Part shown: in pieces, positions 13,076 to 34,684 of the stretch
Layout: the number at the start of each line of letters is the position of its first letter
Numbering within the stretch: the stretch's first letter is position 1
DNA from: Gimesia chilikensis
Lineage (GTDB): Bacteria > Planctomycetota > Planctomycetia > Planctomycetales > Planctomycetaceae
Reading direction: 5' to 3'
DNA length: 64,000 bases
Assembly (NCBI RefSeq): GCF_007744075.1
Contig: NZ_CP036266.1
Location: forward strand, 2,101,655-2,165,654
Translations under genes and position numbers: made by a program
The notes under the pieces: generated by a model
What the model was told of the DNA's origin: nothing
The model's database searches: none
Seen by the model: the letters and a program-made list of their open reading frames with translations, nothing else

Positions 13076-13447
13076 TCATCTTGCTGGATTCCCCACCATG
13101 TGGATACTGTGTTTTCCTTGAAACCAGCGACCTGTTACGCGACTCTTGCGAAATGTGCCCAGGAAGCCATACTGGTGATCGAATACACTGATGTACCACG
13201 AGTGGTCCCCGATGTCAGGAAGCCGTCCCTCTACACGTGTCAGAGCATCCCGCCAGACACCAATGTGATTCACGAGGACTACCGCACGTCGTGTAGATTC
13301 ATCAAAGAACCGTTCCCAGCCTTGTGCCAGTTCCAGTTTGCCCTCAATTCCCCCAAATGGATCTATGTCACTATGCCCCAGATGGAGTGGGTTACATCGA
13401 GCAAAATGCAGAAGACCGTCAGTTGTCACTCCGACTACTTGGGCCAA
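13076..13447 (-). CDS. Uncertain ORF, possibly remnant gene
   Basis: A 124-codon open frame with no ATG at its start (TTG at 13447, preceded in frame by TAA about 15 bases upstream). The composition is protein-like, with regularly spaced Trp, Gly and Asp (LAQGWERFFDES, VNHIGVWRDALTRV, GDHSWYISVFDHQYGF). It overlaps head-to-head with the first ~30 codons of a plus-strand ORF and is codon-aligned with another open plus frame (13100-13486). Only one of these can be fully real. I favour this frame as once coding because of its composition, perhaps truncated. No family recognised. Confidence 0.3.
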   Translation of the reverse strand: MAQVVGVTTDGLLHFARCNPLHLGHSDIDPFGGIEGKLELAQGWERFFDESTRRAVVLVNHIGVWRDALTRVEGRLPDIGDHSWYISVFDHQYGFLGTFRKSRVTGRWFQGKHSIHMVGNPAR

Positions 13448-13719
13448 GTCTTCGAAAGCTTAAATATGCTCGTGAGGAGGGCATAGATTGGCGTCCATTG
13501 ATCAAAAGCCAGTTGAGTTCACTTGGACGGAAACAAGTCGCTACAAAGCGTCTCGACAATAAAACGGCTGACGCAAAAGTGATGAAGCAGGCGATAGAAA
13601 AACATCCTGATTCCCCAGCAGATCAACAGGCATATTGGTGCAACACGACACAAAAAAGTCGTGCTAGTTACTTCAGATTTCGTCAACGGTATCAGAAAAT
13701 GCTGGAAGATTCTGAGTGA
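13357..13719 (+). CDS. Hypothetical protein (120 aa), start uncertain
   Basis: Open frame ending at the TGA at 13717-13719. The first in-frame ATG is 13357; a GTG at 13324 is possible. The sequence YAPDGVGYIEQNAEDR, then LRKLKYAREEGIDWRPL, and a Lys/Arg-rich C-terminus (KSRASYFRFRQRYQKM) look like genuine protein but match no family I know. No clear ribosome site, so the start may be wrong or the gene may be a 5'-truncated remnant. It is the first member of the small-gene array; its stop codon is part of a TGACACC motif. Confidence 0.4.
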   Translation: MDLCHYAPDGVGYIEQNAEDRQLSLRLLGPSLRKLKYAREEGIDWRPLIKSQLSSLGRKQVATKRLDNKTADAKVMKQAIEKHPDSPADQQAYWCNTTQKSRASYFRFRQRYQKMLEDSE

Positions 13720-13767
13720 CACCTGCATTCCATCCATTACCACACCTATCCAGCAAGGAGCAGATAA

Positions 13768-14076
13768 ATGCTTAAACAGATCGCCAAATCAGACGGCAAT
13801 AATGAATGTCTCATGAAAGCAGCCAGCGATGCCATCGCAGTTCAAGATGCTGTCAATCTTATTGCTATAGTTGGATGTTTCCATCGACACCTCAAGGCAA
13901 TGAGAGAAACTGGAATGTCTGGGGATGAACTCAACAATCATCCAGTCACGATCTGCTTCATAAGTAAGTTATCCAGTCTGTGCAGGATGACTGTTGAACG
14001 GGAAACTAAAGCCTTTGGGGCCATTGAAAAGATGGCAAATGGCGAAACGGTTCAGTACGAAGTGATTCCCATCTGA
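13768..14076 (+). CDS. Hypothetical small protein (102 aa)
   Basis: Clear start: ATG with AAGGAG ten bases upstream. All-helical looking, with CLMKAASDAIAVQDAVNLIAIVGCFHRHLK in the first half (quoted here in outline: alternating Ala/Val-rich helix and Cys at ~15 and ~37), and a second Cys/Ser segment. No membrane helix strong enough to call and no signal peptide. Unknown family. Its stop codon TGA at 14074 begins a TGACACCC motif. Flanked by other small accessory genes, it is likely part of the mobile-element cargo. Confidence 0.6.
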   Translation: MLKQIAKSDGNNECLMKAASDAIAVQDAVNLIAIVGCFHRHLKAMRETGMSGDELNNHPVTICFISKLSSLCRMTVERETKAFGAIEKMANGETVQYEVIPI

Positions 14077-14103
14077 CACCCATTGATTGATCATTTGCAA
14101 CAG

Positions 14104-14760
14104 TTACTTCTTCCCCTTGGGTTTTTCGTCATCTTTGAATGTGGATAAGACATACCTCCGATTCAGTGGCTGCGGAAAACGAGCCTCAGATTCGAACAAC
14201 TTACGGATTTTTTCCAGCTTGGTTTTGTTTATCTCATATGGATTTTTAATGACTACCCAACTAACGTTTTCGCTGTAGGGCGGTGTGGTCAGCGATCCTT
14301 CATATCTGTAGTGCTTTTCCCAGTCGGTTGGCAAAAAGTCCTGTGGATTAAAAGAGACATGATAATCAGGACCGTTGCTTGTTCCAGCAGAGGAGAGAGA
14401 GGCGATCTGTGTGAGCAATGAATGCAAAGGATCTTTTGTTTTGCCGGGTTCGATGAAAATCCCAATAACTGCCAGTGATCCATCATGAGAATTTTGGTGA
14501 ACCACGTGTAACTCCATCGTATGCTGACTTCCATCCACCCAGTGCTCACTGGGATGATGAAAATGAAACTGTCTCAGGTGATATTTCTTACCGGATAGTT
14601 CGATGTATTGACGACAGTCCGAAGCGAAAAGTACCTGCATTCCATGATCACCTTTATGAATGTGACCATGGACATCACCATTCCATTCTATCTTTAATTT
14701 GTCGTCTCCGAAGTCTGCATAAATCGAATTTCTGATATCGATAGGGGACTGCTGGTTCAT
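14104..14760 (-). CDS. Alpha-class carbonic anhydrase, no signal peptide
   Basis: 218 residues from the ATG at 14760. It begins directly with NQQSPIDIRN, the alpha-CA entry motif, so no export signal is present, unlike most bacterial alpha-CAs, which are periplasmic. Zinc ligands are in QFHFHHPSEHWVDG (two His) and MELHVVHQN (third His). The C-terminal YEGSLTTPPYSENVSWVV is the hydrophobic-pocket signature around Thr199. Length fits the family minus the signal. Catalyses CO2 hydration; here probably cytosolic. The only gene of the 13.7-17.3 kb array with an ordinary metabolic function, and oriented opposite to most neighbours. Confidence 0.93.
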   Translation of the reverse strand: MNQQSPIDIRNSIYADFGDDKLKIEWNGDVHGHIHKGDHGMQVLFASDCRQYIELSGKKYHLRQFHFHHPSEHWVDGSQHTMELHVVHQNSHDGSLAVIGIFIEPGKTKDPLHSLLTQIASLSSAGTSNGPDYHVSFNPQDFLPTDWEKHYRYEGSLTTPPYSENVSWVVIKNPYEINKTKLEKIRKLFESEARFPQPLNRRYVLSTFKDDEKPKGKK

Positions 14761-14914
14761 GGTGTGCTTTTCCTGTTCTCAAATGATGGATTCACTGTTG
14801 TTCAGGTTGTCCCAAATCAGATTAAGTAAGACAAGAATATTCTTTCCTGAAAACCATCTGACACCCATCAGATGAATGCTGAACCAATCACGATCATTTG
14901 ATGAAAGGAACAAG

Positions 14915-15202
14915 ATGATTCAGAAAAGTAAACCTCTCTTCCAACTCGGTCGGACTGTCGCCACACATGGAGCTCTCGATGCTCTCCAGAAAAATAATCA
15001 GTCACCGCTTGAGTTCTTTGAAAGACATAAGCATGGGGACTGGTCTGAGCTGTGTTCGGAAGATCGCCAGACTAATGAGCAGGCTCTTAAAGACGGCGAC
15101 CGGATTTTCTCGGTCTACCATCTCAAGGACAACACAAAGATCTGGGTAATTACCGAAGCAGATCGCAGTGCCACAACAATTCTGCTCCCCGAAGAATATT
15201 GA
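14915..15202 (+). CDS. Plasmid/ICE-associated small protein
   Basis: Start at ATG 14915, seven bases after AAAGGA; an upstream in-frame start at 14876 lacks a ribosome site. The 95-residue product has the pattern FQLGRTVATHGALDAL, GDWSELCSEDRQTNE, FSVYHLKDNTKIWVITEADR and ends TTILLPEEY. That exact architecture is familiar from small proteins carried on conjugative plasmids and integrative elements, often annotated only as plasmid-related. Biochemical role unknown. It supports the view that this stretch is mobile-element cargo. A TGACACCC copy inside an inverted repeat (CATCTGA/TCAGATG) lies 56 bases before the start. Confidence 0.8.
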   Translation: MIQKSKPLFQLGRTVATHGALDALQKNNQSPLEFFERHKHGDWSELCSEDRQTNEQALKDGDRIFSVYHLKDNTKIWVITEADRSATTILLPEEY

Positions 15203-15259
15203 AATCGACACCCTCAATCACTGTGTTCTTAACTTCAACATTCTTTCTGGGAGATAAAC

Positions 15260-15475
15260 ATGATGGACGATCATCTTGACCAATTTATGGAAGATCATCT
15301 CAACGGTGGCTATGGCGACATATTAGACGAACAAGCAGCAGATGAGTTCGCCGAAGAATTCGACGAATATCTTCCTTTTGACGAGCCGTGGGATGATATT
15401 CTGCAACAACAGGAACTGGAAGATTTCGAGCAGGCAGACGAGTATTTCGGCTTCTTCGGCTACGACGAATTCTAA
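15260..15475 (+). CDS. Extremely acidic small protein, candidate DNA mimic
   Basis: 71 residues with 26 Asp/Glu and no Lys or Arg at all (two His only). The start is ATG at 15260 or the adjacent ATG at 15263, after GGGAGA. Acidic residues are spread along the chain with aromatic and Leu/Ile residues between (EEFDEYLPFDEPWDD, FFGYDEF), as in proteins that mimic the DNA phosphate backbone such as Ocr and ArdA. No sequence match to those families is evident. Placed between two plasmid-type small genes. An anti-restriction or other DNA-binding-protein inhibitor role is inference from charge and context; it could instead be a chaperone-like or structural acidic protein. Confidence 0.65.
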   Translation: MMDDHLDQFMEDHLNGGYGDILDEQAADEFAEEFDEYLPFDEPWDDILQQQELEDFEQADEYFGFFGYDEF

Positions 15476-15569
15476 TCTCTAAGTTCCTAAAACAAGACAC
15501 CCACAAGACTGATCCAAGAATCACTGCGATTCTTGCATCAGTTTTTTTCTTTTAAGGGGAGATCATTTT

Positions 15570-16001
15570 ATGGGGTGGACGTATCCGACAGACGTTTCAA
15601 GAAAAGAACTCATTCAACAGCGGACTAAATCATGGCAACGCGAGATTAATGGAGTGACTGTTAAATCGACTTGCCTCTCTCACTGTTTCCGAGGCGGTAG
15701 ATTTAGCGGCGTGCTATGGGCGGTATTTGAGCGGACGTTTGAAAAAGGTGGCGAGCAGGTTGAACGAACGCAACGCTGGATTACCTGCGACTTAATTCGC
15801 TGCCATGGAGGGGACTGGGGTTACAAGGACATGCAGGAAGCCGAACATCCTTATTACTATTCCTGCCCACAAAAATATCTGGATCTGGTGCCTACAGAAG
15901 AGTTTGGCGGCAATGCCGAATGGCGATCTCAGGTGAGACTTTACCACCAAAAACAGCTTGAAAAAAGGCGTCAGAAGAAGCCTCAAGGTCTCACTCAATG
16001 A
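15570..16001 (+). CDS. DUF6927-like protein of mobile elements
   Basis: 143 residues; ATG preceded by AGGGGAGA. The N-terminus MGWTYPTDVSRKELI and the pattern STCLSHCFRGGRFSGVLWAVFE, then RWITCDLIRC, DWGYKDMQEAEHPYYYSCP match proteins found on plasmids and ICEs under DUF6927-type annotation. Several conserved Cys and aromatic residues; no catalytic motif known. Cytosolic. The stop codon TGA at 15999 is the start of a TGACACCC motif. Family name given from memory of the pattern, so moderately sure; function unknown. Confidence 0.7.
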   Translation: MGWTYPTDVSRKELIQQRTKSWQREINGVTVKSTCLSHCFRGGRFSGVLWAVFERTFEKGGEQVERTQRWITCDLIRCHGGDWGYKDMQEAEHPYYYSCPQKYLDLVPTEEFGGNAEWRSQVRLYHQKQLEKRRQKKPQGLTQ

Positions 16002-16055
16002 CACCCGCATGAGCTCTATAACAAACATTCTTCATTTTATTTACAGGAGATGCCA

Positions 16056-16307
16056 ATGACTGATCGCACAGAAGCAGAAGCCATCCGTCGGGTGATGACT
16101 CAAAGCATTAATGCTGTTGAGGGTAGTCGAGAATTTTTGGAAGCGAAGCACGGACAGGTCTGGGATACCAGTGAACTCCAGCAGGAGTTCGAAGTGCTGG
16201 GGTTTTGTAGTCCATGCTGTGTCGTCCGCAATCGTTCTAATTCACAGAGGGGGACCGTGTTTTTTCAGCATAATCCTCGTTTCTATTTCGGTTTCGAACC
16301 TGAATAA
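16056..16307 (+). CDS. Small mobile-element-associated protein (83 aa)
   Basis: The start is taken as the second ATG (16056), six bases after AGGAG; the ATG at 16050 abuts the ribosome site and is unlikely. The protein has a helical N-terminus and then LQQEFEVLGFCSPCCVVRNR with a C-x2-CC cluster, GTVFFQHNPRFYFGFEPE at the end. This pattern (FxVxGFxxPxVVVxRK...G.L.F.H.PRFYFxF) is seen in small genes of conjugative elements of unknown role. It lies in the repeat-motif array, 57 bases after a TGACACCC copy. Confidence 0.65.
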   Translation: MTDRTEAEAIRRVMTQSINAVEGSREFLEAKHGQVWDTSELQQEFEVLGFCSPCCVVRNRSNSQRGTVFFQHNPRFYFGFEPE

Positions 16308-16376
16308 ATCCTTATTGTGTCTGTGGAGTCAGGGAGGACTTTGCAGACACCTTCATTATATATTGGAGACTTAAAT

Positions 16377-16499
16377 GTGAACGATAAGAAATGCAGACGG
16401 AATAATCCAGCCAAGATCATTCCCAATTCATTAAAGAAACCTCGATCATCTGCACGAACCTATTATGGCAAAGGCGTTTCCCGTCAGATGAGATGCTGA
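16377..16499 (+). CDS. Very small basic protein (40 aa), tentative
   Basis: GTG start at 16377 after TGGAGAC, giving a 40-residue Lys/Arg/Asn-rich peptide (VNDKKCRRNNPAKIIP at the start, KKPRSSARTYYGKGVSRQ later). Preceded 31 bases upstream by a GACACC copy, like its neighbours. Strongly basic, possibly nucleic-acid binding. No homologue known to me. Could be spurious; the ribosome site, composition and array position are the only support. Confidence 0.35.
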   Translation: MNDKKCRRNNPAKIIPNSLKKPRSSARTYYGKGVSRQMRC

Positions 16500-16604
16500 G
16501 AGCTCTCACTCAGATTGAACTTGTCAGTTTGACAACTTGAATCGTTGGGCTGGGGATGAGTGCCTGTGAAATCCTCCGTGATTCCGCAGACACCCAAATT
16601 GACC

Positions 16605-17111
16605 TCAACCCCAGACAACAAATCTGGGATCAATCGAAAACCCACATTGGTCACATTTTGTATCCGTCATCGAAATCTTTCCCTTTTCGCAATGTGGGCA
16701 AATATCAGAATCAAGTAGAATCTTGCAATCTTTCCCCATTTCAATTCCGCATTCAGGGCATGAGTGATTTTCAAACTCGAAAGCCCATTCTCCCCAGCAA
16801 CTAGGACAGTGATCGTGCGGGACAATCAGTATCTCGCCATTAACTATGTATCGTTGAAACGAAGCAACATTCCAAGTGCGATATAACTCTCCATTCTGAC
16901 CTACTGAGTGTCCCGTATCTATTAGTTGTAAGAATCGATCATTTTCCCATTCACCAACTTCCAGAGTACAATTCAGGTCAATACTATATTTTTTCCCGAT
17001 TCGCTTTCCTAATTCGGCGAGTTTTGATCGTAGTCCTTCCAACTCTGGGGAATCCAGTAACTCATCCACAGATACTTCAATCTCATCAATTAAGTCTTTG
17101 CCCTTCTGCAC
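16605..17111 (-). CDS. Double zinc-ribbon protein of unknown function
   Basis: The GTG at 17111 is taken as start because AGGAAG precedes it; the frame is open to a TTG at 17180. The N-terminal part is helical and charged, the middle has NVASFQRYIVNGEILIVP, and the C-terminus holds two four-Cys ribbons: HCPSCWGEW...SCPECG and ICPHCEKG...KCDQCG. Zinc ribbons of this kind serve protein or nucleic acid contacts. Minus-strand gene in an otherwise mostly plus-strand array, and its 3' end overlaps the region carrying a GACACCC copy. Family unknown. Confidence 0.6.
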   Translation of the reverse strand: MQKGKDLIDEIEVSVDELLDSPELEGLRSKLAELGKRIGKKYSIDLNCTLEVGEWENDRFLQLIDTGHSVGQNGELYRTWNVASFQRYIVNGEILIVPHDHCPSCWGEWAFEFENHSCPECGIEMGKDCKILLDSDICPHCEKGKISMTDTKCDQCGFSIDPRFVVWG

Positions 17112-17332
17112 GCTTCCTGATCCATTTATGTAATTCCTCGTCGTCCGGTTTCTAAGCCGACTGAAAATGTAAACTGTCAATAATCTCTAATTCTGGCCGA
17201 TGATTCGCAGTAATTCTAGGTCGTCCAAGTCTCTCATGTCTGTAACGTGTCGCCTGTAATTTACAGTTTACAAATCCTGACACCCGTAAGCCATCTGTCT
17301 AAAACAGAAATATAATATGCGGAGAAATTCAG

Positions 17333-17935
17333 ATGGCGAAATCAACCGCGATTTATATGCGGGTATCAACCAAGGACCAGAAGCATGCCAGCCAGCTACC
17401 TGATCTGGAACGATGGTGCGAGGCCCATGGCGGGAAAGTCGTCTGGTTCAAAGACACATTCTCTGGCCGCACGATGAACCGTCCGGGGATGGACCAGCTC
17501 CTCGAATCACTTCGCATGGGCAAGCTGGATCGGATTGTTGTGTGGCGTCTTGATCGACTGGGGCGAACCACCAAAGGGCTCTGCCAACTCTTTGACGAAC
17601 TGCGGGAACGCCGGGTTGATCTTGTCAGCCTTAAAGATGGATTCTCACTGGAATCTCCGGCTGGTCGACTCCATGCACGCATTCTTGCCTCGGTCGCGGA
17701 GTATGAGACTGAGATCAGAGCGGAACGAGTCGCAGCAGGGCAGGCCGTCGCTCGCAAGAAGGGAAAGAGGTGGGGAGGAAGCGAGAAGGGCTGGCGGTGG
17801 AAGGTCACTGACGATCAAGTCAATGCCATTCATGAGATGCGAGCTCAAGGCAAAGCAATCACAAAGATCGCCCGGGTGACTGGTCTTTCAAGACCAACGA
17901 TCTACCGCGTACTGCGAGAAGTTCAGCCACTGTAA
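17333..17935 (+). CDS. Serine recombinase (resolvase/invertase family)
   Basis: 200 residues, the usual size of a small resolvase/invertase. ATG with GGAGAA upstream. The catalytic domain shows AIYMRVSTKDQ (Ser12 nucleophile), FSGRTMNRPGMDQLL, VVWRLDRLGRTT and GRLHARILASVAEYETE, the conserved Arg and helix E region. The C-terminus carries an Hin-type helix-turn-helix (GKAITKIARVTGLSRPTIYRVL). Mediates site-specific strand exchange between res- or inversion-type sites; no obvious site pair was found beside it. Located at the boundary between the small-gene array and the mercury module, consistent with a past mobile unit. A 105-codon open frame continues in frame right after its stop (see next entry). 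Confidence 0.93.
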   Translation: MAKSTAIYMRVSTKDQKHASQLPDLERWCEAHGGKVVWFKDTFSGRTMNRPGMDQLLESLRMGKLDRIVVWRLDRLGRTTKGLCQLFDELRERRVDLVSLKDGFSLESPAGRLHARILASVAEYETEIRAERVAAGQAVARKKGKRWGGSEKGWRWKVTDDQVNAIHEMRAQGKAITKIARVTGLSRPTIYRVLREVQPL

Positions 17936-18250
17936 AAGAGTGGCTGGACGCATCAAATTGAGCTCGCACGAGGCGGTGGTGTTACAAAAATTGTTTTAGA
18001 GAATTGTGGGGTAGTTTATGTAATAAAGTTACCCCCGGAGGGGGCTTATAATGGACTAAACCCCCTATGGGTTTTATATGACCTTCATGGGACAAAGAAT
18101 CGTCTATGGAAAGTTGGTAACAAAAATTGGATTATCTGGCAGGCTGATTCTGGGGAAATAATCTTGAAAACTATTAAACAAGCGGCGTCTTATAAATACC
18201 GGCGACAGGAAAATTTCATCAATCCTAAGAGTTTTCTGGCTGATCAATGA
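17936..18250 (+). pseudogene. In-frame open remnant directly after the resolvase stop codon
   Basis: After the resolvase TAA (17933-17935) the same frame stays open for 104 codons to a TGA at 18248-18250. It contains no ATG or GTG; only a late TTG. The translation is protein-like with five Trp codons (SGWTHQIELA, NPLWVLYDLHGTKNRLWKV, NWIIWQADSGEIIL, FINPKSFLADQ). Either this is the tail of a gene whose start was lost in a rearrangement, or it is read with a non-canonical start or by stop-codon read-through from the resolvase. GC-rich dyads at 18031-18045 and 18058-18075 lie inside it. No family recognised. Confidence 0.35.
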
Positions 18251-18414
18251 CTCCCGTTTTCCAGATAACGTCTCTTTACCATTTGCTTGAAGCATCTGTA
18301 ATCATTACTGGAAATGAGATCGTTGGTATCGATCCCAGTGAGTAACGTTCTATGCTCTCGCTTCGGTGGGAACTATAAAAAATGGGGTTCTTCCTGAATT
18401 TCAAATAACAAGAC

Positions 18415-18446
18415 TTGACCCTGTAGTATGGTGCAAGGTGTATGAT
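18415..18446 (+). promoter_or_regulatory. MerR-type promoter/operator upstream of merR (first)
   Basis: TTGACC (18415-18420) and TATGAT (18441-18446) are separated by an overlong 20-bp spacer, the hallmark of MerR-activated promoters. The spacer holds an imperfect dyad ACCCTGTA/TGCAAGGT (18418-18439; 6 of 8 positions complementary) centred between the boxes. It drives the merR gene starting at 18471, implying autoregulation. Confidence 0.7.
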
Positions 18447-18470
18447 GGGGCAATGAAAGGAAGATTCAAC

Positions 18471-18881
18471 ATGAAATCACTCACGATTGGTCAGGTTGCG
18501 GAACGTTCTGGTGTCGGCGTCGAAGCTGTGCGGTTTTATGAACGGGAAGGATTAATCCCTAAGCCTGACCGGTCGTCTTCCGGTTATCGCCAATTCGATG
18601 ACCAAACAATTGCCCGTTTGCAGTTTATCAGACGGGCCAAAGAACTCGGTTTCACGCTCACTGAAATCAAAGAACTGCTGTCACTACGGCTTGATGCAAC
18701 AACAAGTTGTGCCGACATAAAAAGTCGGGCCGAAGCAAAGATCGCCGACTTCGATGAAAAGATTCGTACACTCAAACAGATGAAGAGGGCTTTGAACAAA
18801 CTGACCAGCGAATGCAGTGGTCGAGGATCAATCAGTGAATGTTCGATTCTCGATGCTCTTGATTCCAAGCCAAGAAAATAA
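18471..18881 (+). CDS. merR: MerR family regulator, mercury-type
   Basis: 136 residues from ATG 18471, well placed after AAAGGA; the open frame extends upstream through the promoter and is ignored. The N-terminal helix-turn-helix is TIGQVAERSGVGVEAVRFYEREGL, followed by GYRQFDDQTIARLQFIRRAKELGFTL. The effector domain has three cysteines with the spacing C-x34-C-x8-C (SCADIK, SECSG, SECSI), identical to the Cys82/117/126 Hg(II) site of Tn501 MerR. The length also fits. Predicted to repress and, with Hg(II), activate its own promoter and the adjacent small Cys-rich genes. A second MerR with the same cysteine spacing lies at 19471-19884. Confidence 0.88.
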   Translation: MKSLTIGQVAERSGVGVEAVRFYEREGLIPKPDRSSSGYRQFDDQTIARLQFIRRAKELGFTLTEIKELLSLRLDATTSCADIKSRAEAKIADFDEKIRTLKQMKRALNKLTSECSGRGSISECSILDALDSKPRK

Positions 18882-18949
18882 CGGATACTTCCATTCTTTT
18901 GACCACGGGTATCAGCCTGTGATGGAAGCCTAGAACAGATTCCGACTCG

Positions 18950-19210
18950 TGTGTGAGTCAGGTGTGTCGCCTGCCTCAACACCGGCAGTATCCTTTTGGA
19001 AAGGAGACAATCATGCCACTCAAGAAAGGTGAAAAGTACCGCTGTCCCGACTCGAAGTGCGGTTGCGAAATCAAAGTGACTCAGGGGGCTGCTCCTGATT
19101 GCGGCGGCAATGAAAATCCTCACTGTTGCTGCGGTAAGGAGATGGTCCGAGTCGAGGGATGAAAAACTATCTTGTTCAGTCTGTGAGCAGGTATGTCGCC
19201 TGTTAAATGA
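18950..19210 (+). promoter_or_regulatory. Repeated leader element before two Cys-rich genes
   Basis: Two near-identical ~22-base segments, at 18951-18973 and 19182-19202, read TGTGAG(T)CAGGTRTGTCGCCTG. Each can form a small stem CAGGT/GCCTG with a five-base loop, and each lies 38-40 bases before the start of one of the two small Cys-rich genes (19013 and 19240). The conserved sequence suggests a shared regulatory RNA or protein-binding element or a duplicated leader. Confidence 0.45.
19013..19162 (+). CDS. Small Cys-rich metallothionein-like protein
   Basis: 49 residues starting at the ATG after AAAGGAGA. Nine cysteines are arranged as YRCPDSKCGCEIKV, DCGGNENPHCCCGKEM, with no signal peptide. 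The content and length resemble bacterial metallothionein-like or zinc-ribbon peptides found beside metal resistance genes. It is likely a cytosolic metal ligand, here most plausibly for Hg(II), given the merR gene 131 bases upstream. Metal specificity cannot be read from sequence. A conserved leader element precedes it and is repeated before the next gene. Confidence 0.75.
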   Translation: MPLKKGEKYRCPDSKCGCEIKVTQGAAPDCGGNENPHCCCGKEMVRVEG

Positions 19211-19239
19211 CTGAACGTACTCAAGTAAAGGAGATTATC

Positions 19240-19410
19240 ATGCGAAAGAACTGGATTTGGGCAACTATGCTGGCGTTACCGCTGGCTGTGGGAGGCTGGG
19301 TTTACGCCGGTGTACAGACTAACCCAGACGCATCAAGCATTGAAGACAGTTTCGTTTGCCCAGTCACGGGTGAGGAACTTCCCTGTTCCAAGTGTTGTCC
19401 GCTCAAGTAA
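19240..19410 (+). CDS. Small exported Cys-rich protein
   Basis: 56 residues from ATG 19240 (AAAGGAG upstream; an earlier in-frame start has none). An N-terminal signal peptide (WIWATMLALPLAVGGWVYAG) is followed by a short acidic stretch and a Cys-rich end FVCPVTGEELPCSKCCPLK. Probably exported to the periplasm as a metal scavenger, the extracytoplasmic counterpart of the preceding cytosolic Cys-rich protein. It ends just before a strong bidirectional terminator. Unknown family; assignment is from composition and context. Confidence 0.7.
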   Translation: MRKNWIWATMLALPLAVGGWVYAGVQTNPDASSIEDSFVCPVTGEELPCSKCCPLK

Positions 19411-19432
19411 GCCAATAAACTTAGCTGAGCAC

Positions 19433-19470
19433 ACGCCCGTCAAAGAAGTTAGTTCTTCGACGGGCGTTTT
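19433..19470. terminator. Bidirectional intrinsic terminator between convergent mer genes
   Basis: ACGCCCGTC (19433-19441) pairs perfectly with GACGGGCGT (19459-19467), extended by an inner AAGAA/TTCTT pairing around a GTTAG loop, followed by TTTT. Lies between the stop at 19410 (plus) and the stop of the second MerR gene at 19471 (minus). Confidence 0.85.
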
Positions 19471-19884
19471 CTACTTCTTCGCTGCTGCTTCTAATGTTTT
19501 GAGAACGTGACAACACTCGGCTGATTGAAACTCTCGACATTGGTTGAGACTTGTTTGCAGCACACGCTGAACGTGTCGCAAATCCTTCAATTTCTGTTTG
19601 ATGTCGGAAAGCCGCTTTTCAATCAGACGCTGCACGTCCTCACAGGCTGAATTCTGATCGTCGGGCCTGTCGAGCAAAGCCTTGATGTCATCGAGTGTGA
19701 ATCCGACGGCTTGAGCCGCCCGGATGAATTTCAGTTTCCGTAATGACTCTTCGCTGTACAGCCGGTAATTGCCAGCACTGCGGTCGTCCGGCTCGACCAG
19801 TCCGACCCGCTCATAGTAACGCACGGTTGTCGTGGGAAGTTTGGCGGATTTCGCCACTTGGCTGATCGTGAACTGTCTTGCCAT
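19471..19884 (-). CDS. merR: MerR family regulator, second copy with Hg-type cysteines
   Basis: 137 residues. Helix-turn-helix FTISQVAKSAKLPTTTVRYYERVGLV, then NYRLYSEESLRKLKFIRAAQAVGFTL. The effector region has cysteines at the same C-x34-C-x8-C spacing (SACEDV, NQCREF, ECCHVL) with one extra Cys, so it too matches the mercury triad geometry. Divergent from the CopZ-MerT-HMA fusion gene at 20056, whose upstream region carries a MerR-type promoter, so this is the likely regulator of the transport/reductase genes. Only about a third of residues look shared with the first MerR, so this is not a recent duplication. Confidence 0.87.
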   Translation of the reverse strand: MARQFTISQVAKSAKLPTTTVRYYERVGLVEPDDRSAGNYRLYSEESLRKLKFIRAAQAVGFTLDDIKALLDRPDDQNSACEDVQRLIEKRLSDIKQKLKDLRHVQRVLQTSLNQCREFQSAECCHVLKTLEAAAKK

Positions 19885-19961
19885 TGCTGCTCCGAAAACT
19901 ATCTGCTTGTGAGTATTTGCGTCCCCAAAGACGAAACTTAAAATATTATCCTCAAATCAGC

Positions 19962-19993
19962 TTGACCTTGCACTTAGGTACAACGTCGATAAT
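19962..19993 (+). promoter_or_regulatory. MerR-type promoter/operator of the mer transport-reductase operon
   Basis: TTGACC (19962-19967) and GATAAT (19988-19993) with a 20-bp spacer. The spacer holds the dyad ACCTTGCA/TACAACGT (19965-19986; 6 of 8 positions complementary). Same geometry as the promoter at 18415. Placed between the divergent second merR and the gene at 20056. Confidence 0.7.
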
Positions 19994-20055
19994 AGGCGTA
20001 GAACGAAGATTCGACAAGAGTTCTTGCATCATGACTTCTACGGAAAGGTGATTCG

Positions 20056-21600
20056 ATGACCGCAGAAACAACGACGGATAAACGACTTCATTGCCCCTCC
20101 TGCAATAAGAAAGCGAAGCGGGTATCACAGGTGACTTTGCGAGCGTTGCTCAAGGATCAGTTCGCTACCGAGATCGGCAGTGACGATCATTCGTGCTGCG
20201 ATTCCCACAGTGGATGCACGTCCCTCACCGAGGACACCGGCTGGCGGTATTGCGATTCATCCGATTGCGATGTGGTTTACTTCTCCGAAACAGGCGACAT
20301 CAGTTTTACGAAGTCACAACTCAATGTTCCTGTCGGTGTGAAGGAAACCAGCGGCGAACGGCCCCTGTGTTATTGTTTCGGACATTCGGTCGCCAGTATC
20401 AAGAACGAATTGCGTACGAAGGAACATTCTGATGCTCTGGAAGACATCCGGGACAAGATGAAAGCCCCCGGATGCCACTGCGAAACATCCAACCCCAGTG
20501 GTTCCTGTTGTCTGGGAAGCGTGTCCAAAGGTATTCGGATCGCTCAGAAGGAATTGGAGCTGAATGCCTCGAATGAGACGCCTACATCAATAGTGAAACC
20601 ATCGACCGGACGTGTCGAGAAGTTCGCCCAGATCGGCACGGTCTTCTCGGCGATCATGGCATCGGCATGTTGCTGGCTCCCTCTGCTTCTGCTGGCAGTG
20701 GGCGTATCTGGGGCCGGAATTGCAGCCACACTGGAAACATATCGCCCGCTGTTCATAATTGTAACGTTTGGATTTCTTGGCTCGGCATTCTATTTCACCT
20801 ACCGTCCCAAGAAGTTTGCTGCGGGAACAGGACACGGCTGCTGTCCCACGGAAACTATGGAGGCAGAGGACTGCTGTACCCCGAAAGCCAAACGTCGTTT
20901 CAACATGATGTCCTTGAACAAGGTGATGCTGTGGGGCGTGACGGTGTTGGCGGTCGCCTTCCTGTTCTTCCCCAGCTACGTCGGCTTATTATTCGGCACT
21001 GGTAATAATTCCGCCGTGACCGAGAATATGCATCGGGCAGTCTTTCAGATCGAGGGAATGACCTGCGAGGGCTGTGCCACAACGGTCGCTCAAGCAATCC
21101 GTCAGGTGCCCGGTGTTGTGGCTGTAGAAATCAGCTATGAAAAAAGGCAAGCTGCTGTCGGTGTGGAACCGGGCAGCCCAATCCCTAAGAAAGAAATTCT
21201 GGCAGCCTTGAAGAAGGCTGGATACAGCGGAAAAATTCTCAGCACGGAAGAAACATCCGAAGCAAGTGATCACATCATTACGGCAACAACACCCCCATCC
21301 ATCGATGGTGACGACGAACAGTCAAGCAATATCCCGAACGAATTCTTTCTTCAAACAGTATTGAATATCGAAGGCATGACCTGCGAAGAATGTGCGAAGC
21401 GGGTTTCGGAGATGATCCACAGCGTTCCCGGTATCACCGACGTTCACGTCGATTTCGAGTCGGGCCGAGCAAACGTCCAAAGCCCGGCTTGTTGTGCTTT
21501 TCCCAAGGAGGCCGTGCTGTCTGCTGTGGAGAAATCTGGTTTCCATGGAAAAGTGATTGTGGAAGAGACTCCCGTCTCGACATCGAGCACCAAACAATAA
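20056..21600 (+). CDS. CopZ-like metallochaperone / MerT / tandem HMA fusion protein
   Basis: 514 residues. Residues 1-~150 resemble the Fe-S/zinc N-terminal domain of CopZ: CPSC at 13-16, WRYCDSSDCDVVYF, and LCYCFG around 105. Next is a MerT-like membrane module (~190-255) with the Cys pair in SACCWLPLLLLAVGVSGAG (C205-C206) that passes Hg(II) across the inner membrane, then a cytosolic Cys-rich loop (HGCCPTE, EDCCTP), a further membrane helix (~295-318), and two HMA domains with GMTCEGC (~334) and GMTCEEC (~440). Canonical systems use separate MerT and MerP; MerTP fusions have one HMA. The added CopZ head and second HMA suggest an in-line relay from uptake to MerA. Preceded by a MerR-type promoter. 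Confidence 0.88.
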   Translation: MTAETTTDKRLHCPSCNKKAKRVSQVTLRALLKDQFATEIGSDDHSCCDSHSGCTSLTEDTGWRYCDSSDCDVVYFSETGDISFTKSQLNVPVGVKETSGERPLCYCFGHSVASIKNELRTKEHSDALEDIRDKMKAPGCHCETSNPSGSCCLGSVSKGIRIAQKELELNASNETPTSIVKPSTGRVEKFAQIGTVFSAIMASACCWLPLLLLAVGVSGAGIAATLETYRPLFIIVTFGFLGSAFYFTYRPKKFAAGTGHGCCPTETMEAEDCCTPKAKRRFNMMSLNKVMLWGVTVLAVAFLFFPSYVGLLFGTGNNSAVTENMHRAVFQIEGMTCEGCATTVAQAIRQVPGVVAVEISYEKRQAAVGVEPGSPIPKKEILAALKKAGYSGKILSTEETSEASDHIITATTPPSIDGDDEQSSNIPNEFFLQTVLNIEGMTCEECAKRVSEMIHSVPGITDVHVDFESGRANVQSPACCAFPKEAVLSAVEKSGFHGKVIVEETPVSTSSTKQ

Positions 21601-21658
21601 CGCCACACCGATTGGCAGGATTGTTACTTCCTAACTCGCTTCATGAAAGGAGCAAAAC

Positions 21659-22216
21659 ATGATGAATTTGAATGGATTCGCTGGAATGACTCTTGCCTTC
21701 GCTATGTTGGCTGCGTTCTCGGTAGTAGATGCTGGTGAAGATCAGGATCGCTCATTGACTTTAATGACATATTCCATCGGCATTCAAGGGATGACCTGCG
21801 AGACGTGTTCCGCTCACGCCCAAAAAGAACTCGCCGCTGTTCCCGGCGTGGTCAAGTCATCGGTAGATTGGAAGACAGGGCGTGCTTGGGTGACTGTCCA
21901 GTTACCTCGGCAGGAAGATGTTCGCACGGCAAACCCTCGACAGATCAGTACGAAACTTGCCACTGCCGTCGAGCGGTCCGGTTATAGGCCAACTGTGAAT
22001 TATCTGTTGATCATCAAGGGAATGACCTGTGAGGCGTGTTCACAACACATTCAGGACGCCATTGTGAAAGTGCCCGGCGTGTCCGCAGCATCAGTGAACT
22101 ACAAGGGAGGGTATGCCGTAGTCGTTCCGAAAGATAAAGCGAGGTATCTCGCACAGAATCTTGTCGCCGCCGTGAAGAAGGTGGGATACACGGCGACTGT
22201 TCATACGAGACCGTAG
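21659..22216 (+). CDS. Exported tandem-HMA (MerP-like) metal-binding protein
   Basis: 185 residues; ATG after AAAGGAG. A signal peptide (LAFAMLAAFSVVDAG) is followed by two heavy-metal-associated domains with GMTCETC (~44) and GMTCEAC (~121), each with the PGV...V.......V pattern. Canonical periplasmic MerP has one such domain; this protein has two in tandem. Predicted role: periplasmic Hg(II) scavenger delivering to the MerT-containing fusion encoded 58 bases upstream. Metal identity is inferred from neighbours, since HMA domains also bind copper and zinc. Confidence 0.87.
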   Translation: MMNLNGFAGMTLAFAMLAAFSVVDAGEDQDRSLTLMTYSIGIQGMTCETCSAHAQKELAAVPGVVKSSVDWKTGRAWVTVQLPRQEDVRTANPRQISTKLATAVERSGYRPTVNYLLIIKGMTCEACSQHIQDAIVKVPGVSAASVNYKGGYAVVVPKDKARYLAQNLVAAVKKVGYTATVHTRP

Positions 22217-22350
22217 CCGTGACGCAAAGCAAGAGAAAAACACTATCATTATTGGTCTTTGTCGAGACGGTTACTTACGTAAAAGTGGCTGAACTTCTCT
22301 TCGAGGCGGATTCCGGCATCGATTACTAACACTCACCACAGGTAGAAATA

Positions 22351-23778
22351 ATGAATCAAAACTACGATCTGGTCATCCTTGGGTCTGGTTCCACGGCCTT
22401 TGCAGCGGCTCTGGTAGCTCAAAAGATGGGATACACCTCCATTATGACAGAAGAACGAACCATTGGGGGAACTTGTGTAAATCGGGGCTGTCTGCCGTCG
22501 AAGAACCTGATCGAAGCGGCGAAGCTACTTCATGACGCTCACCATCCTCGCTACCCCGGCCTCACACCGTGTCGGATAAAACTCGATTTCTCGGCCTTGA
22601 TCGCTCAAAAGAGAAAAGTCATTCAGGACTATCGGGAAAAGAAGTATGAAAGCCTGATTGATGGCCGTATTCATATCGAACAGGGGCACGTTCATTTCGT
22701 TGATCCACACACGGTTAAGGTCAATGGAAAGCTTCTTAGGGGAGAAAAGATATTGATCGCTACCGGCTCTCGTCCGATTGTTCCCGACATCGAGGGCTTA
22801 GATCAAGTGCCCTATCTGACGAGCGACTTGCTGACTGTGGACGAGGAAACCGAATTGACCGACTTACCGAAAACTCTACTGATCGTCGGAGGTGGGTACA
22901 TTTCTTTGGAACTCGCCCAGATGTTTCACCGCTTCGGAACGGGAGTGACCATTCTTGAACGAAACCCTCAGTTGCTTGCTCATGGATACGAACCGGAAGT
23001 AGGACATTCCATCGGCAATGTATTTTCCGAAGAAGGAATTCAAGTCGTAGTGAATGCGTCGGTCCGCACTGTCCGTCAGGAAGATGATGAGGTTATTGCA
23101 ACCGTTTTAGTCGGCGGGAAGAAAGTCGATTATCGAGCAGAGAAGCTGTTGGTTGCAACCGGTAGACGCCCCAATACGGATTACATAGGTATTGAGAAGT
23201 CCGAAGTGCAGGTAAACACGCATGATGAGATCAGTGTGGACGAATACCTGAGAACAAGCGTTCCACATATCTTCGCTGCCGGTGATGTAATTGGACAACA
23301 TAGCGGGAGCCAGATGGCGACTCCTGTAGGAAGTCAGGACGGCGGCATCGCTGCCAGAAACGCTCTTTCCGATGACTTACGGTTTGTTGATCATCGGGTG
23401 ATTCCCCGCTGTATCTTCACCGATCCACAAGTCGCTGTTGTCGGCATGACGGAAGAAGAAGCGGTTGTCGCAGGCCATCAGTGCTGGTACAATACTGTCC
23501 CGATGTCGCTTGTACCTCGTGCCGGTGCCATTCGAGACACAAGGGGCATCATCAAAATGGTGGCCGATGCCAATACGAATGAAGTGTTAGGTGTGTCGAT
23601 GGTTGCTGCCAATGCGGGGGAAGTCATCCACGAAGCAGCGATGGCGTTGCGGTTTCGTGCTACGATACACGACTTTATCGACCTGCTTCATGTGTATCCC
23701 ACGATGTCCGAGGCTCTCAAGATCGTTGCCATCTCGAAGTTCAAAGATCCCACCAAGCTCTCCTGCTGTGCGGAATAG
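22351..23778 (+). CDS. merA: Mercuric reductase
   Basis: 475 residues of the class-I pyridine nucleotide-disulfide oxidoreductase family. FAD site [14 protein letters not shown]; redox pair [13 protein letters not shown] (Cys42, Cys47); NAD(P) site [15 protein letters not shown]; second FAD motif HIFAAGDV. The C-terminal tail ends LSCCAE, the vicinal Cys pair that receives Hg(II) in MerA and is absent from lipoamide dehydrogenases. No N-terminal HMA (NmerA) domain; the HMA domains of the two upstream proteins may substitute. Reduces Hg(II) to Hg(0) with NADPH in the cytosol. No merB lies nearby, so only inorganic mercury resistance is predicted. Confidence 0.95.
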
Positions 23779-23825
23779 TTTCGTAAACTTCGGGAAAGAA
23801 TTCAAATAATCAGAGAACGATCGAT

Positions 23826-24158
23826 ATGAAGACAATAATTCTATTTCTGGTCACAGCATTCTTTGAAATAGCAGGCTGTTTTGCCTTCTGGGCGTGGCTG
23901 AGAATGAATCGATCTGCATGGTGGACAGTTCCGGGAACAATTTCACTTATCATTTTTGCTTTATTTCTCACAAGAGCAGAGTCGGACTTTGCTGGACGTT
24001 CCTATGCTGCATACGGAGGGATTTACGTAGTATCCTCACTAATCTGGTTGTGGATGATAGAATCACAAAGCCCAGATCACTGGGATGTTATAGGTGCCAT
24101 CATCTGTTTGGGAGGAGCATCACTCATCCTATTTGGACCTCGACCATTAATGCAGTAA
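23826..24158 (+). CDS. YnfA family (UPF0060) membrane protein
   Basis: 110 residues with four hydrophobic segments, matching UPF0060/YnfA in length and pattern: AFFEIAGCFAFWAWLR, ALFLTRAESDFAGRSYAAYGGIYVVSSL (outline), and WDVIGAIICLGGASLILFGP near the end. A small-multidrug-resistance-like membrane protein often found in metal-resistance clusters. Substrate not established. Starts 47 bases after merA and may be transcribed with it. Confidence 0.92.
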   Translation: MKTIILFLVTAFFEIAGCFAFWAWLRMNRSAWWTVPGTISLIIFALFLTRAESDFAGRSYAAYGGIYVVSSLIWLWMIESQSPDHWDVIGAIICLGGASLILFGPRPLMQ

Positions 24159-24293
24159 GGTGGTGAGTTTTTTTTAGCAGACAATAATTCTCATTTGAAT
24201 CCCTCAGTCTGGCGTTTTGATACTTTTCGAGCATACTGTGATAGAGACAACAGAGGTGTTCCCGAATGTTTCGTCAAATGTTTTCAATACTGA

Positions 24294-24336
24294 TTGACAA
24301 TTTTTAATCAAGACTATAACATGGTCATATTGCCAT
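24294..24336 (+). promoter_or_regulatory. arsR promoter with ArsR-like operator overlapping the start codon
   Basis: TTGACA at 24294-24299 and TATAAC at 24315-24320 (15-bp spacing). Immediately after comes the dyad ATGGTCATATTGCCAT at 24321-24336, whose right half includes the arsR ATG (24335). The dyad shares ATGGxxATATTGCCA with the palindrome at 24673-24688. Confidence 0.65.
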
Positions 24337-24655
24337 GAAGGAAAAAACACGCAAACAATATGAAGCCAGAGCCAAAATCGCCAAGGCGATGGCTCATCCA
24401 AGTCGATTGCTGATGCTGGATCTGCTCCAGAATCAGGAATTGTGCGTGGGAGATCTGACTGAAAAGGTGGGGGTAGATCAATCCACAGTTTCGAAGCACC
24501 TTTCGATTCTCAAGGAAGTCGGGCTCGTAGACTCACGCAAGGAGGGGACTCTCAGTTACTACCGCGTTACCTGTGGCTGTCTCGATGGGTTCTTTTCCTG
24601 CATGGAAACGGTGCTGTTAACTGATCTGGAGGGGCGTAAGCAATCTGTTAAATAA
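24335..24655 (+). CDS. arsR: ArsR/SmtB family repressor
   Basis: 106 residues, typical ArsR size. The winged helix is seen as AMAHPSRLLMLDLLQNQELCVGDLTEKVGVDQSTVSKHLSIL (outline), the wing as EGTLSYYRV. The classic CVC in the recognition region is CVG here, and extra cysteines sit at the C-terminus (TCGCLDGFFSC), so the As(III) site is not of the E. coli R773 type and may use C-terminal thiols as in some other ArsR lineages. No Shine-Dalgarno precedes the start, and the predicted transcription start is only about eight bases upstream, so translation may be nearly leaderless. First gene of the ars cluster. Confidence 0.9.
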   Translation: MKEKTRKQYEARAKIAKAMAHPSRLLMLDLLQNQELCVGDLTEKVGVDQSTVSKHLSILKEVGLVDSRKEGTLSYYRVTCGCLDGFFSCMETVLLTDLEGRKQSVK

Positions 24656-24672
24656 TTTTTTTTGCCGCATTA

Positions 24673-24688
24673 ATGGCAATATTGCCAA
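24673..24688 (+). promoter_or_regulatory. Second ArsR-like palindromic operator
   Basis: TGGCAATATTGCCA (24674-24687) is a perfect 14-bp palindrome, 18 bases after the arsR stop and 23 bases before the next gene. It matches the dyad over the arsR start, suggesting ArsR binds both and controls the downstream operon separately. Confidence 0.65.
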
Positions 24689-24710
24689 ATTGGAATAATG
24701 GGAGCAGCCG

Positions 24711-24869
24711 ATGAAAGAATTATTCCAGATCATGGCAGAACTGATATTGGCGGCAGGAGTCATATTTTATGTCGTTTTGGTTCTCACGACAGGTTTCGAG
24801 AAAAGGACTATTTTATTTGGTGTACTGCTTACAAGTTTTTCTCTGCTCTATCTTGTCGTTCAGTTCTGA
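24711..24869 (+). CDS. Small two-helix membrane protein in ars operon (52 aa)
   Basis: ATG at 24711 with GGGAG upstream; stop TGA at 24867-24869. The product is almost entirely two hydrophobic helices: AELILAAGVIFYVVLVLTTG and TILFGVLLTSFSLLYLVVQF, with a short charged turn (FEKR). Too short for most gene finders. Its position directly behind the second ArsR-like operator suggests it is the first gene of an ArsR-controlled unit. Function unknown. Confidence 0.6.
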   Translation: MKELFQIMAELILAAGVIFYVVLVLTTGFEKRTILFGVLLTSFSLLYLVVQF

Positions 24870-24893
24870 CTGAGTGAGGGGGACTCCTGACCT

Positions 24894-25283: not shown

Positions 25284-25366
25284 CGCACGACCGATGTGTT
25301 CTGAGGACAAAATTTACTCTGCTTAGTTCGGTTTTCTATAAGAATGTCAATTTAGAAGGTCCACGA

Positions 25367-25813: not shown

Positions 25814-25820
25814 ATTGACA

Positions 25821-27059: not shown

Positions 27060-27064
27060 TGATT

Positions 27065-27325: not shown

Positions 27326-27357
27326 TAATAAATTTTCATTAGAAGGGTATTCAAGAA

Positions 27358-27777: not shown

Positions 27778-27808
27778 TACGTAATTTTCTTGAATGAGGA
27801 GTGATTCC

Positions 27809-30628: not shown

Positions 30629-30649
30629 TTATTTCTCCTTTGAAAGGGA

Positions 30650-31195: not shown

Positions 31196-31273
31196 TTCAC
31201 ACTTTCCTTCCAAAGACGATATAGGTGTCATTCCCGTTGATTCATTAGGATGAAATCTGCCATCTAACTTTGA

Positions 31274-32658: not shown

Positions 32659-32739
32659 CTGCGGTGACCCTTTTAAAGAGATTACTGTGCGATAAATCGG
32701 CTCAGCATCTCTTCCGGGTGTCAACGGTGACAAAAATGA

Positions 32740-33100: not shown

Positions 33101-34684
33101 TTATGTTTTCAGCTCTTTGAAGACAGGCTCGTAGAAGGAGTGTATTTTTCTCAATGCATCATGTAGTAAGCCAAATGGACGATCTGCGTAGATGTTAAGA
33201 AGGTCATCGTTTGTTGGATTGCCATGACAAAGCATTAGGCTCGCTACTTCTCCACCAAATCTTTTGCGAAGTTCATTTGATACTGTCTTTCTGAGTGATT
33301 TGAATGGGTAGCGTGGGAAATCTTCAATTCGATTGCCAACCTTCGTGACAATTCCAACTTTTCTTGTGCTTTTGGTAGGTTTGCCATTCCACCATGTGTT
33401 GATCGCAGATTGTGGAGCTTTCCAAGCCTCATTGTACATTGGATTTCCGTGTCCATTGATACAAATAAATTCCGATCCCAGTTTTTTAGCTCTATCTATT
33501 GCTAATTTTAAATAGCGGACAGTTTCGGGCCACAGATACCATTCTCCATATACTCCTGTCTTGGGGCGGTTGAATAGAAGCCATGAGTCTTGGCTGTTTG
33601 ACTCAATGCCGAGTGTTTCGGCATATGGGTGGGGAGTATCGAGTAAGAATCTATCGATAGTTACTCTGCCTACTTCCGCGTGAGAAAACGAGCAGTTAAG
33701 GCATAGTAAGATAATGGCTTTCTGGAAATCATTACATTCTTTTATAATTTCCACTAACTGAGTTGGAGCGTAAGTATCAATTGTGATGGCGGAATTTTGT
33801 TTTTCGGATGGAAACACAACCACTTTGCGATTGATCTTGTCTACCCCTTTGGGTTTCTCCCATCTGTAATCAGATGTATCAAGCCAATCCAAAAATCGAA
33901 AGATTTGTTTGATGGTACCTTCTGCATGATCGAAGGAGCAGCGACTCGAATAAATTGAGGGCGGACGGTTTCTCCAAATTCCAACGATTTCGTCTATCTG
34001 TTGGAGCGACAACTCAGCTAATGTTAAATGTCCAAACTGTTTATTCACTTGTTTAATCAAGCGAATTCTATTTTGTGAACCGAGGGACAATGAGCCATTT
34101 TCTATTCGCTTGCCTGTAGTTTCTATGTTTGTGACATAATCTTGAATAGCCTTTTCAAGCTTTGAGAAGTCGGTTGTGAGGGGATTGCCAGATAAGCGAA
34201 CTTTCGCTGCGAGAGGGCCAAATTCTTGGTTATATCGAGCATTTACATTTGAAATGGCTTCTTGCACATCTTCGGCTATCATTTCGCGTAGGACTTTTTG
34301 GCCGTATTGAATTTGTTCCTCATTATCAAATTTTATGGGAACATTATATGTCTCGGAAATTTCATTAAGAATGGATGCTTCCATTGCGGCTTCATAATCA
34401 TTGGATGTTGAATCATTGGAGAAAACGGTCCAATGAACTGGCTGGTCTTTGGCGACTGCATCTGCAAATTGTAGGACAATATCATCCCAGAAATCATGTC
34501 CATACTTTTTGCATTGATGGTCGTATATGGCTTGGATCTTGGCACGTTTTGCTTCCGCCTCGATCTTTGAAGTTCCCAGATTGAATCGTTTCTGGGCTTC
34601 GCGTTTGGAATCGATGTATCCTATGCGAGGACGGTACCGACCTTGAGAATCTGGCTTCAAATCCTTCTTGCGAGTAACAGCCAT
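33101..34684 (-). CDS. Tyrosine recombinase / phage-type integrase
   Basis: 527 residues. N-terminal SAM-like and linker regions (AVTRKKDLKPDSQGRYRPRIGY; KVNKQFGHLTLAELSL type). The C-terminal catalytic domain is of the lineage frequent in planctomycetes: LLCLNCSFSHAEVGRV, WLLFNRPKTGVYGEWYLWPETV, SLRKTVSNEL (box II-like Arg), and IYADRPFGLLHDAL with the nucleophilic Tyr. The first catalytic Arg position (usually GxRxxE) reads SFSHAEV, so the classic Arg I is not obvious. It ends its leader 130 bases from a tRNA-Arg gene on the same strand, the expected position for an integrase of a tRNA-borne genomic island. Confidence 0.88.
   Translation of the reverse strand: MAVTRKKDLKPDSQGRYRPRIGYIDSKREAQKRFNLGTSKIEAEAKRAKIQAIYDHQCKKYGHDFWDDIVLQFADAVAKDQPVHWTVFSNDSTSNDYEAAMEASILNEISETYNVPIKFDNEEQIQYGQKVLREMIAEDVQEAISNVNARYNQEFGPLAAKVRLSGNPLTTDFSKLEKAIQDYVTNIETTGKRIENGSLSLGSQNRIRLIKQVNKQFGHLTLAELSLQQIDEIVGIWRNRPPSIYSSRCSFDHAEGTIKQIFRFLDWLDTSDYRWEKPKGVDKINRKVVVFPSEKQNSAITIDTYAPTQLVEIIKECNDFQKAIILLCLNCSFSHAEVGRVTIDRFLLDTPHPYAETLGIESNSQDSWLLFNRPKTGVYGEWYLWPETVRYLKLAIDRAKKLGSEFICINGHGNPMYNEAWKAPQSAINTWWNGKPTKSTRKVGIVTKVGNRIEDFPRYPFKSLRKTVSNELRKRFGGEVASLMLCHGNPTNDDLLNIYADRPFGLLHDALRKIHSFYEPVFKELKT

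Follow-up and report, generated by a model that had tools for sequence, protein, structure and literature searches.

On the chromosome of the planctomycete Gimesia chilikensis, the hexamer GACACC recurs on one strand in the gaps of an array of small genes, which raises the question of the role of such a repeated motif. The array is located in a stretch of 64,000 nucleotides (nt), called here the window (positions 2101655-2165654 of the 8.29-Mb chromosome), and window coordinates are used throughout unless a related sequence (L numbers) or genome (G numbers) is named. A previous reading of the window from its letters (the sequence-only reading) had proposed that the motif could mark a cassette boundary, a recombination or processing signal, or the -35 box of an unrecognised sigma factor. 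The analysis reported here identifies the motif as the 5' box of a leader of about 53 nt, often folded, that stands ahead of the array genes. The interpretation that we favour, and to which we give an even chance of being right, is that of a gene-by-gene leader of an establishment-type regulon carried by integrated planctomycete elements and probably acting in RNA.

Results

All nine copies listed by the sequence-only reading were found where it had placed them, on the + strand. Their location in gaps between genes holds for nine of the ten GACACC copies of the array; the tenth + copy, which had been overlooked, is intragenic (13886..13891, inside the coding sequence of F10, gene 13768-14076) and is regarded as a chance occurrence. 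As had been claimed, the TGA of the motif is the stop codon of the upstream open reading frame (ORF) in three cases (ORFs ending at 13719, 14076 and 16001). Counted from the first G of the hexamer, the next + strand start is 50, 55, 53, 56 and 54 nt away for five copies, the exception being the copy at 15496, with 74 nt. The minus-strand copies were likewise recovered at 32722, 32438, 31229 and 5594, those at 32722, 31229 and 5594 being located, by hand count, 64, 34 and 56 nt ahead of a minus-strand ATG.

Between 13,700 and 17,300, GACACC is present 10 times on the + strand and 0 times on the - strand, compared to a mean of 0.49 + copies (maximum 4) for the 59 other permutations of the hexamer. 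Over the whole window, TGACACC (14 copies versus 8.9 expected, 14 being reached in 6 of 100 shuffles) and GACACCC (13 copies versus 7.1 expected, 13 being reached in 4 of 100 shuffles) are mildly enriched, and GACACC itself shows no enrichment (34 copies versus a mean of 31.9 for permuted hexamers). The real signal is the clustering and strand bias of the motif, not its window-wide frequency. A qualifying start, defined as a start codon with a Shine-Dalgarno sequence opening an ORF of at least 60 aa, 44-58 nt downstream, follows 4 of the 10 GACACC copies of the array region compared to 1 of 92 copies elsewhere in the genome (200 kb, as ten 20-kb samples from other stretches), where permuted hexamers gave 50 of 6502. 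The bare 8-mer TGACACCC is common, with 216 genome-wide occurrences compared to 153 of its reversed control. For the bipartite pattern GACACCNGYWWGNNNNNYRT, the 8.3-Mb genome has 5 matches, always in the forward orientation, and its reversed control has none. All five matches fall within the window array or related loci of the same genome, and in 70 other genomes of the family the matches are mostly background, with forward counts similar to the control. The motif is present beyond the presumed island that carries the array and beyond the genome of the window, and the initial observation is confirmed.

Relatives of the array were gathered by reading the neighbourhoods of the relatives of F8 and F9. 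Matches to the F8 protein (encoded at 15570-16001) are found in 5 of 61 genomes of the family and, in addition, on 7 named contigs, and matches to the F9 protein in 32 of 258 genomes of the class. The 25 array segments collected among these relatives yielded 144 candidate leaders, 126 of which have their start codon 49-57 nt past the box, the accepted box-to-start range being 38-61 nt for 12 segments and 43-59 nt for 13 segments, with copies outside uncounted. When 40 non-redundant leaders out of 52 were anchored on the box, a second block appeared at +17 to +19 with the consensus YRT (Y in 38, R in 35 and T in 28 of the 40), followed by a G-poor stretch and then by a Shine-Dalgarno sequence; upstream of the box, only position -1 deviates. 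Lone genes away from the main array also have this box, on the strand of the gene and 49-61 nt upstream of its start (L107 13407 and 13923; L109 2603 and 3119; L114 284 and 3387).

Regarding the folding of these leaders, with z calculated against dinucleotide shuffles, a first set of 40 non-redundant leaders gave a mean z of -1.31 versus +0.09 for 102 controls from the same genome (p 3e-5), and of -1.09 when only the middle part was shuffled. In a second set, consisting of 50 further non-redundant leaders out of 92, the mean was -1.60 versus -0.62 for 103 controls drawn from the loci of these leaders (p 0.005). In 58 of 91 leaders, the fold with the own 3' half is better than the average over halves taken within the array type (Wilcoxon p 6e-6). 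Strong hairpins are found, for example, in the leaders at L062 657, L061 5505 and L017 9601. In the structures predicted for the first set, GACA, the loop and the start codon are open, positions +5 to +19 are paired above shuffles, and the Shine-Dalgarno positions are paired at 0.60-0.66 versus about 0.4 in shuffles; the predicted stems comprise 4-17 pairs.

The box consists of RRCACC and a suffix that is near-constant within most array types and different between types. It is typically spelled GGCACCTGCTA in L107, L108 and L109, GGCACCCCCTAG in L018 and L114, AACACCCGCTTG in L110, GACACCCGCTTG in L060 and L062, GACACCTGTTAG in L061, and GACACCGG.AAG in the second array type of G000, G038, L065 and L103; the window-type box is GACACCC with a looser suffix, and L106 has GACACC with a loose suffix. 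The spelling follows the element rather than the gene or the host, since one gene family can be spelled differently in different arrays and since G000 and G391 hold two array types each. L059, L063 and the G050 locus seemed motif-free at first, but their contigs proved to carry a GGCACC variant (L109, L108 and L018); no array was found in L064 and L066 in the GACACC spelling, variant spellings being outside that scan. A widespread host motif was considered and rejected: TARGACACCKGNAA occurs in 32 of 392 genomes of the phylum, yet at least four same-strand GACACC copies were found just at the G000 and G038 loci, among the 30 loci followed up from the matches listed.

The Pfam families detected in the arrays are ArdC (PF08401 with PF18818), a RuvB-like gene and a tyrosine recombinase. 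ArdC-like anti-restriction genes sit behind the box in several arrays, together with RuvB-like, recombinase and small genes, and serine recombinases or their relatives close several arrays. F5 to F10 (window 13768, 14915, 15260, 15570 and 16050; L010 8637) have no Pfam match. Plasmid relatives of F7 in other bacteria were found in 194 records, 88 of them typed conjugative, and those of F8 in 13, 7 of them typed conjugative. In four plasmid regions, the 7-mers common upstream of genes revealed no shared box, and GACACC precedes 1 of 49 genes. It should also be noted that, on the Pseudomonas plasmid pKLC102 (L068, 4124-11962), many gaps show by eye a G+C-rich hairpin about 40-70 nt before the start; these hairpins have no common box and are possibly a parallel case.

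The comparison of homologous arrays between relatives, another check that had been suggested, was positive, as whole leader-plus-gene units differ among them. The cassette boundary of the sequence-only reading is partly supported: units come and go, and type B arrays mostly break at the box, whereas type A arrays rarely do so. A breakpoint was assigned to the box when its left end lay 4-14 nt past the box start or its right start 0-26 nt before the box. Among 19 breakpoint rows of type B arrays, the left end is at the box in 14, the right end in 15 and both ends in 11, two of the 14 left ends being so in one partner only and one row lying upstream of the first box; the same windows gave 3 left ends, 9 right ends and 2 cases of both among 33 rows of type A arrays. 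These rows share events, and the counts are purely descriptive. The cleanest case is that of L103: compared with L065 and with the second array present in the genome of the window, it has an additional 972-bp box-to-box unit, which holds a reverse ORF (up to 215 aa) and whose insertion point is exactly the 12-nt box, with a 12-nt overlap.

These exchanges bear on the main rival interpretation, namely an attC-like cassette recombination site, in which the folded box strand would be used by a recombinase of the element to insert or excise single-gene units. Integron attC arrays have one repeated folded site per unit, similar along the array, with reversed genes inside, and the leader arrays resemble them by their folded repeat per unit, their reversed genes and their array-wide likeness, the suffix being homogeneous within an array. 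The L103 insertion and the type B breaks argue in the same direction, together with the Xer-like tyrosine recombinase within L060, the serine recombinases ending several arrays, and the reversed genes, which are often flanked on both edges by a box on the array strand, with no GACACC on the opposite strand in the 11 regions examined. These reversed genes are mostly mechanical ORFs, the sole Pfam match above cut-off being a carbonic anhydrase, and their value as proof of cassettes is weakened by L116, where the reversed ORF lies, by eye, between the first part of the F10 leader and the tail of F10, so that its edge box is a relic; in L105 and L102, the carbonic anhydrase unit has a degenerate edge box. 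Other evidence against an attC-like site comes from the type A breaks, from the weaker fold of the 14 box copies that no + gene follows (mean z -0.73), and from the fixed 53-nt distance to the start codon, which is unexpected for a recombination site. Unlike integrons, the arrays hold conserved core genes and not free cargo, no paired core boxes were recognised, and neither of the two tyrosine recombinases scanned (L060 and the window) is an integron integrase above cut-off, that of L060 reaching 95 bits versus the integron-integrase cut-off of 265 (TIGR02249) and having a close relative just in L115. Since short direct repeats suffice for the loss of a unit, the exchange at the box, which is real in places, can be explained without a dedicated site. 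We thus regard an attC-like site as unlikely, and the recombination or processing signal of the sequence-only reading as possible. Similar small credit is given to a dual-purpose folded leader before every gene, which would provide both a 12-nt address box for one factor of the element, avoiding cross-talk between different elements of one cell, and a joint for swapping units; the arrays would then represent a plug-in anti-defence array, distinct from an integron and from a plain operon.

Discussion

An RNA leader is preferred here because the spacing to the start codon, the paired Shine-Dalgarno sequence and the lone genes with their own copy favour a service to the downstream gene. Its established parts are the box, its spacing, the folding excess, the type-specific suffix, the ArdC-type content and the gain and loss of units. 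Further points in its favour are that the suffix goes with the element and that the arrays contain ArdC, RuvB-like and recombinase genes as well as F7 and F8, with their plasmid relatives. The order of the leader would be the box RRCACC and its suffix, a 5' stem arm extending to YRT (+17 to +19), a G-poor and A/C-rich loop, a 3' arm finishing at or near the Shine-Dalgarno sequence, and the start codon. We infer that the hairpin, formed in the mRNA, would restrain initiation, that a trans-acting factor encoded by the element, either a protein or an RNA, would read the box and suffix, and that the array would be switched as one, for example shortly after entering a new cell. In a few gaps, a terminator-like hairpin would replace the restraining hairpin. 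One such hairpin separates the box of window 15496 from its gene, and the box is also followed by a hairpin at L060 5105 and L017 9940.

Several observations weigh against this interpretation. Folding is significant (p 0.05) in 11 of the 40 leaders of the first set (13 of 40 with the middle shuffled) and in 24 of the 50 leaders of the second, whose control set leans to folding too (13 of 103). Within the window, only the F7 leader, at 14860, is strongly folded (z -3.4); in three of the four other short leaders the fold is not significant and does not go beyond z -1.2, those at 15207 and 16000 folding worse than shuffles. At the edges of reversed genes there are box copies with no following + gene, L112 and L115 contain array genes with few or no box copies, and GACACC and AACACC are mixed in L111. 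In addition, no trans-acting factor came to light, and a scan of 12 loci for an antisense RNA complementary to the box, with one mismatch allowed, gave no clear candidate among the copies examined, to which some (for instance L010 17220, L061 13918 and 14109, and L110 771) do not belong.

A promoter element, that is, an upstream box or activator site recognised by a sigma factor or regulator of the element or the host and giving one transcript per gene, seems to us rather improbable. A strand-specific box at a fixed distance from the starts, with a second block at fixed spacing, is compatible with such a function, and the type-specific spelling is as would be found with a co-evolving DNA-binding protein. 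However, the second block stands 17 nt after the box start, which is too near for a usual -10, and +22 to +29 contain no conserved block, TATAAT-like or other; the -35 box proposed by the sequence-only reading is thus weakly supported. Moreover, neither the folding excess nor the paired Shine-Dalgarno sequence is expected of a promoter, and the terminator-like hairpin at 15496 would separate it from its gene.

Still less probable, and in our opinion very unlikely, is a single-strand promoter like Frpo/ssi, active on the transferred strand during conjugation. The stems of Frpo/ssi of leading regions carry -35, -10 and UP elements (PMC11541004). The likeness is that of a hairpin-forming sequence ahead of anti-defence genes on one strand: hairpins precede many genes of the planctomycete arrays, and the same-strand arrays are reminiscent of plasmid leading regions by their ArdC genes (PMC11541004). 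Unlike Frpo/ssi, the planctomycete stems, with their 4-17 predicted pairs, are too short for a -35 and a -10, and no -10 block is present. The search for transfer genes covered one relaxase family, PF03432, which was found in none of 7 genomes. Finally, chance or base composition, for which the only argument is the mild enrichment of the 7-mers across the whole window, is ruled out for practical purposes by the clustering, the strand bias, the permuted hexamers, the recurrence at the same place in relatives and the GACACCNGYWWGNNNNNYRT counts.

The leader was also compared with known start-associated repeats. In Cluster K mycobacteriophages, the start-associated sequence (SAS) is the 13-mer GGGATAGGAGCCC, located at the translation start, and is accompanied at about half of the sites by inverted repeats with a variable spacer (extended SAS, ESAS); the consensus of these inverted repeats differs by subcluster, and a role in translation initiation has been proposed, the function being unproven. 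The planctomycete box is similarly a repeat that accompanies the starts of many small mobile-element genes, with an orientation following the gene, 126 of 144 leaders having it 49-57 nt upstream of the start. By contrast with SAS, it lies about 53 nt before the start, its stems are gene-specific, its spelling is element-specific, and it is carried by islands and not by phages; the 13-mer GGGATAGGAGCCC is absent from the anchored columns of the 40 leaders, which have a plain Shine-Dalgarno sequence instead.

In plasmids of the pLS20 family, a repeated sequence precedes each establishment gene or operon, ardC included, and comprises EGeRS1, of 400-600 bp with several inverted repeats, and EGeRS2, a promoter with repressor operators (PMC8708921). 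Gene content is mosaic and the sequence differs among plasmids (PMC8708921), as in the planctomycete arrays. Unlike EGeRS1, the leader has about 53 nt per gene and, apart from position -1, shows no conservation upstream of its box. The planctomycete leader thus resembles both the phage start-associated repeats and the pLS20 establishment sequences and is a member of neither, because sequence, place and size differ. In literature outside subscription journals, searched by title and abstract, no description of this leader element was found.

The leader provides a sequence signature of establishment-type arrays in planctomycete islands. With this signature, small genes of unknown function can be sorted by the control that they share; the spelling of the box, specific to the element, would point to a factor with matching specificity, and the exchange of anti-defence genes as leader-plus-gene units becomes testable.

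Other features of the window and of related loci

The first leader of the window array (13718..13767, +) has the box GACACCTGCATT, which overlaps the TGA stop codon ending the upstream ORF, and precedes the F10 start at 13768. The box copy at the F10 stop (GACACCCATTGA, 14075..14103, +) has a weak suffix and no significant fold (z +0.8); no + gene comes next, this copy being located before the reversed carbonic anhydrase gene (14104..14760, -, PF00194). Further downstream are the leaders of F7 (14860..14914, +; F7, 14915-15202), F6 (15207..15259, +, fold not significant; F6, 15260-15475) and F8 (15496..15569, +), the last being 74 nt long, with a T-run next to its terminator-like hairpin. The F9 leader (16000..16055, +) has no significant fold and leads to a start at 16056, with an alternative upstream ATG at 16050. 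The next box copy (16346..16376, +) precedes a small ORF of about 40 aa, conserved by eye in related arrays, and the following one (16589..16604, +) adjoins the 3' edge of the reversed gene 16605-17180, which has a zinc-ribbon match below the Pfam cut-off. The final gene of the array encodes a serine recombinase (17333..17935, +, PF00239) and has its own leader (17279..17332, +), with the start 54 nt from the box. A stretch of about 250 bp behind this gene (17952-18205) is 84% conserved at another locus of the genome, where the gene in front of it encodes a different serine recombinase; no + strand ORF of 40 aa is listed there, and an RNA gene is a candidate. An Rfam scan of 5 sources gave three tRNAs and one tmRNA above thresholds and no other known RNA family.

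On the far side of the island, isolated minus-strand box copies stand 64 nt (32659..32722) and 34 nt (31196..31229) from their ATG codons. They are followed by a gene that is integrase-like by eye (33101..34684, -) and adjoins a tRNA (34827-34900, -); this gene has no match in Pfam or NCBIfam and has weak relatives in L013, adjoining a tmRNA, and in L109. Outside the presumed island, a lone GACACCTGCA at 5594 (minus) accounts for the copy 56 nt before its ATG. The cargo of the island (18366-28291), which comprises a MerT/HMA-domain protein, a mercuric-reductase-like pyridine-nucleotide disulphide oxidoreductase and an SBF-family transporter, resembles mercury resistance by its predicted products.

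The same chromosome carries a diverged copy of the array, window positions 13392-16535 matching 52033-48913 of the joined L009-L012 at 78% and, in a second stretch, 29215-33062 matching 45383-41554 at 80%. It also carries a second array type with GACACCGGCAAG, often directly after a stop codon. A second copy of the window serine recombinase and its leader is present at L009 17039-17700, its translated frame being broken by stops. Finally, two 66-bp box-to-box units with no evident gene of their own precede ArdC-like genes in L010 (4535-4601 and 5880-5946), and such units are also found in L065 and L016.

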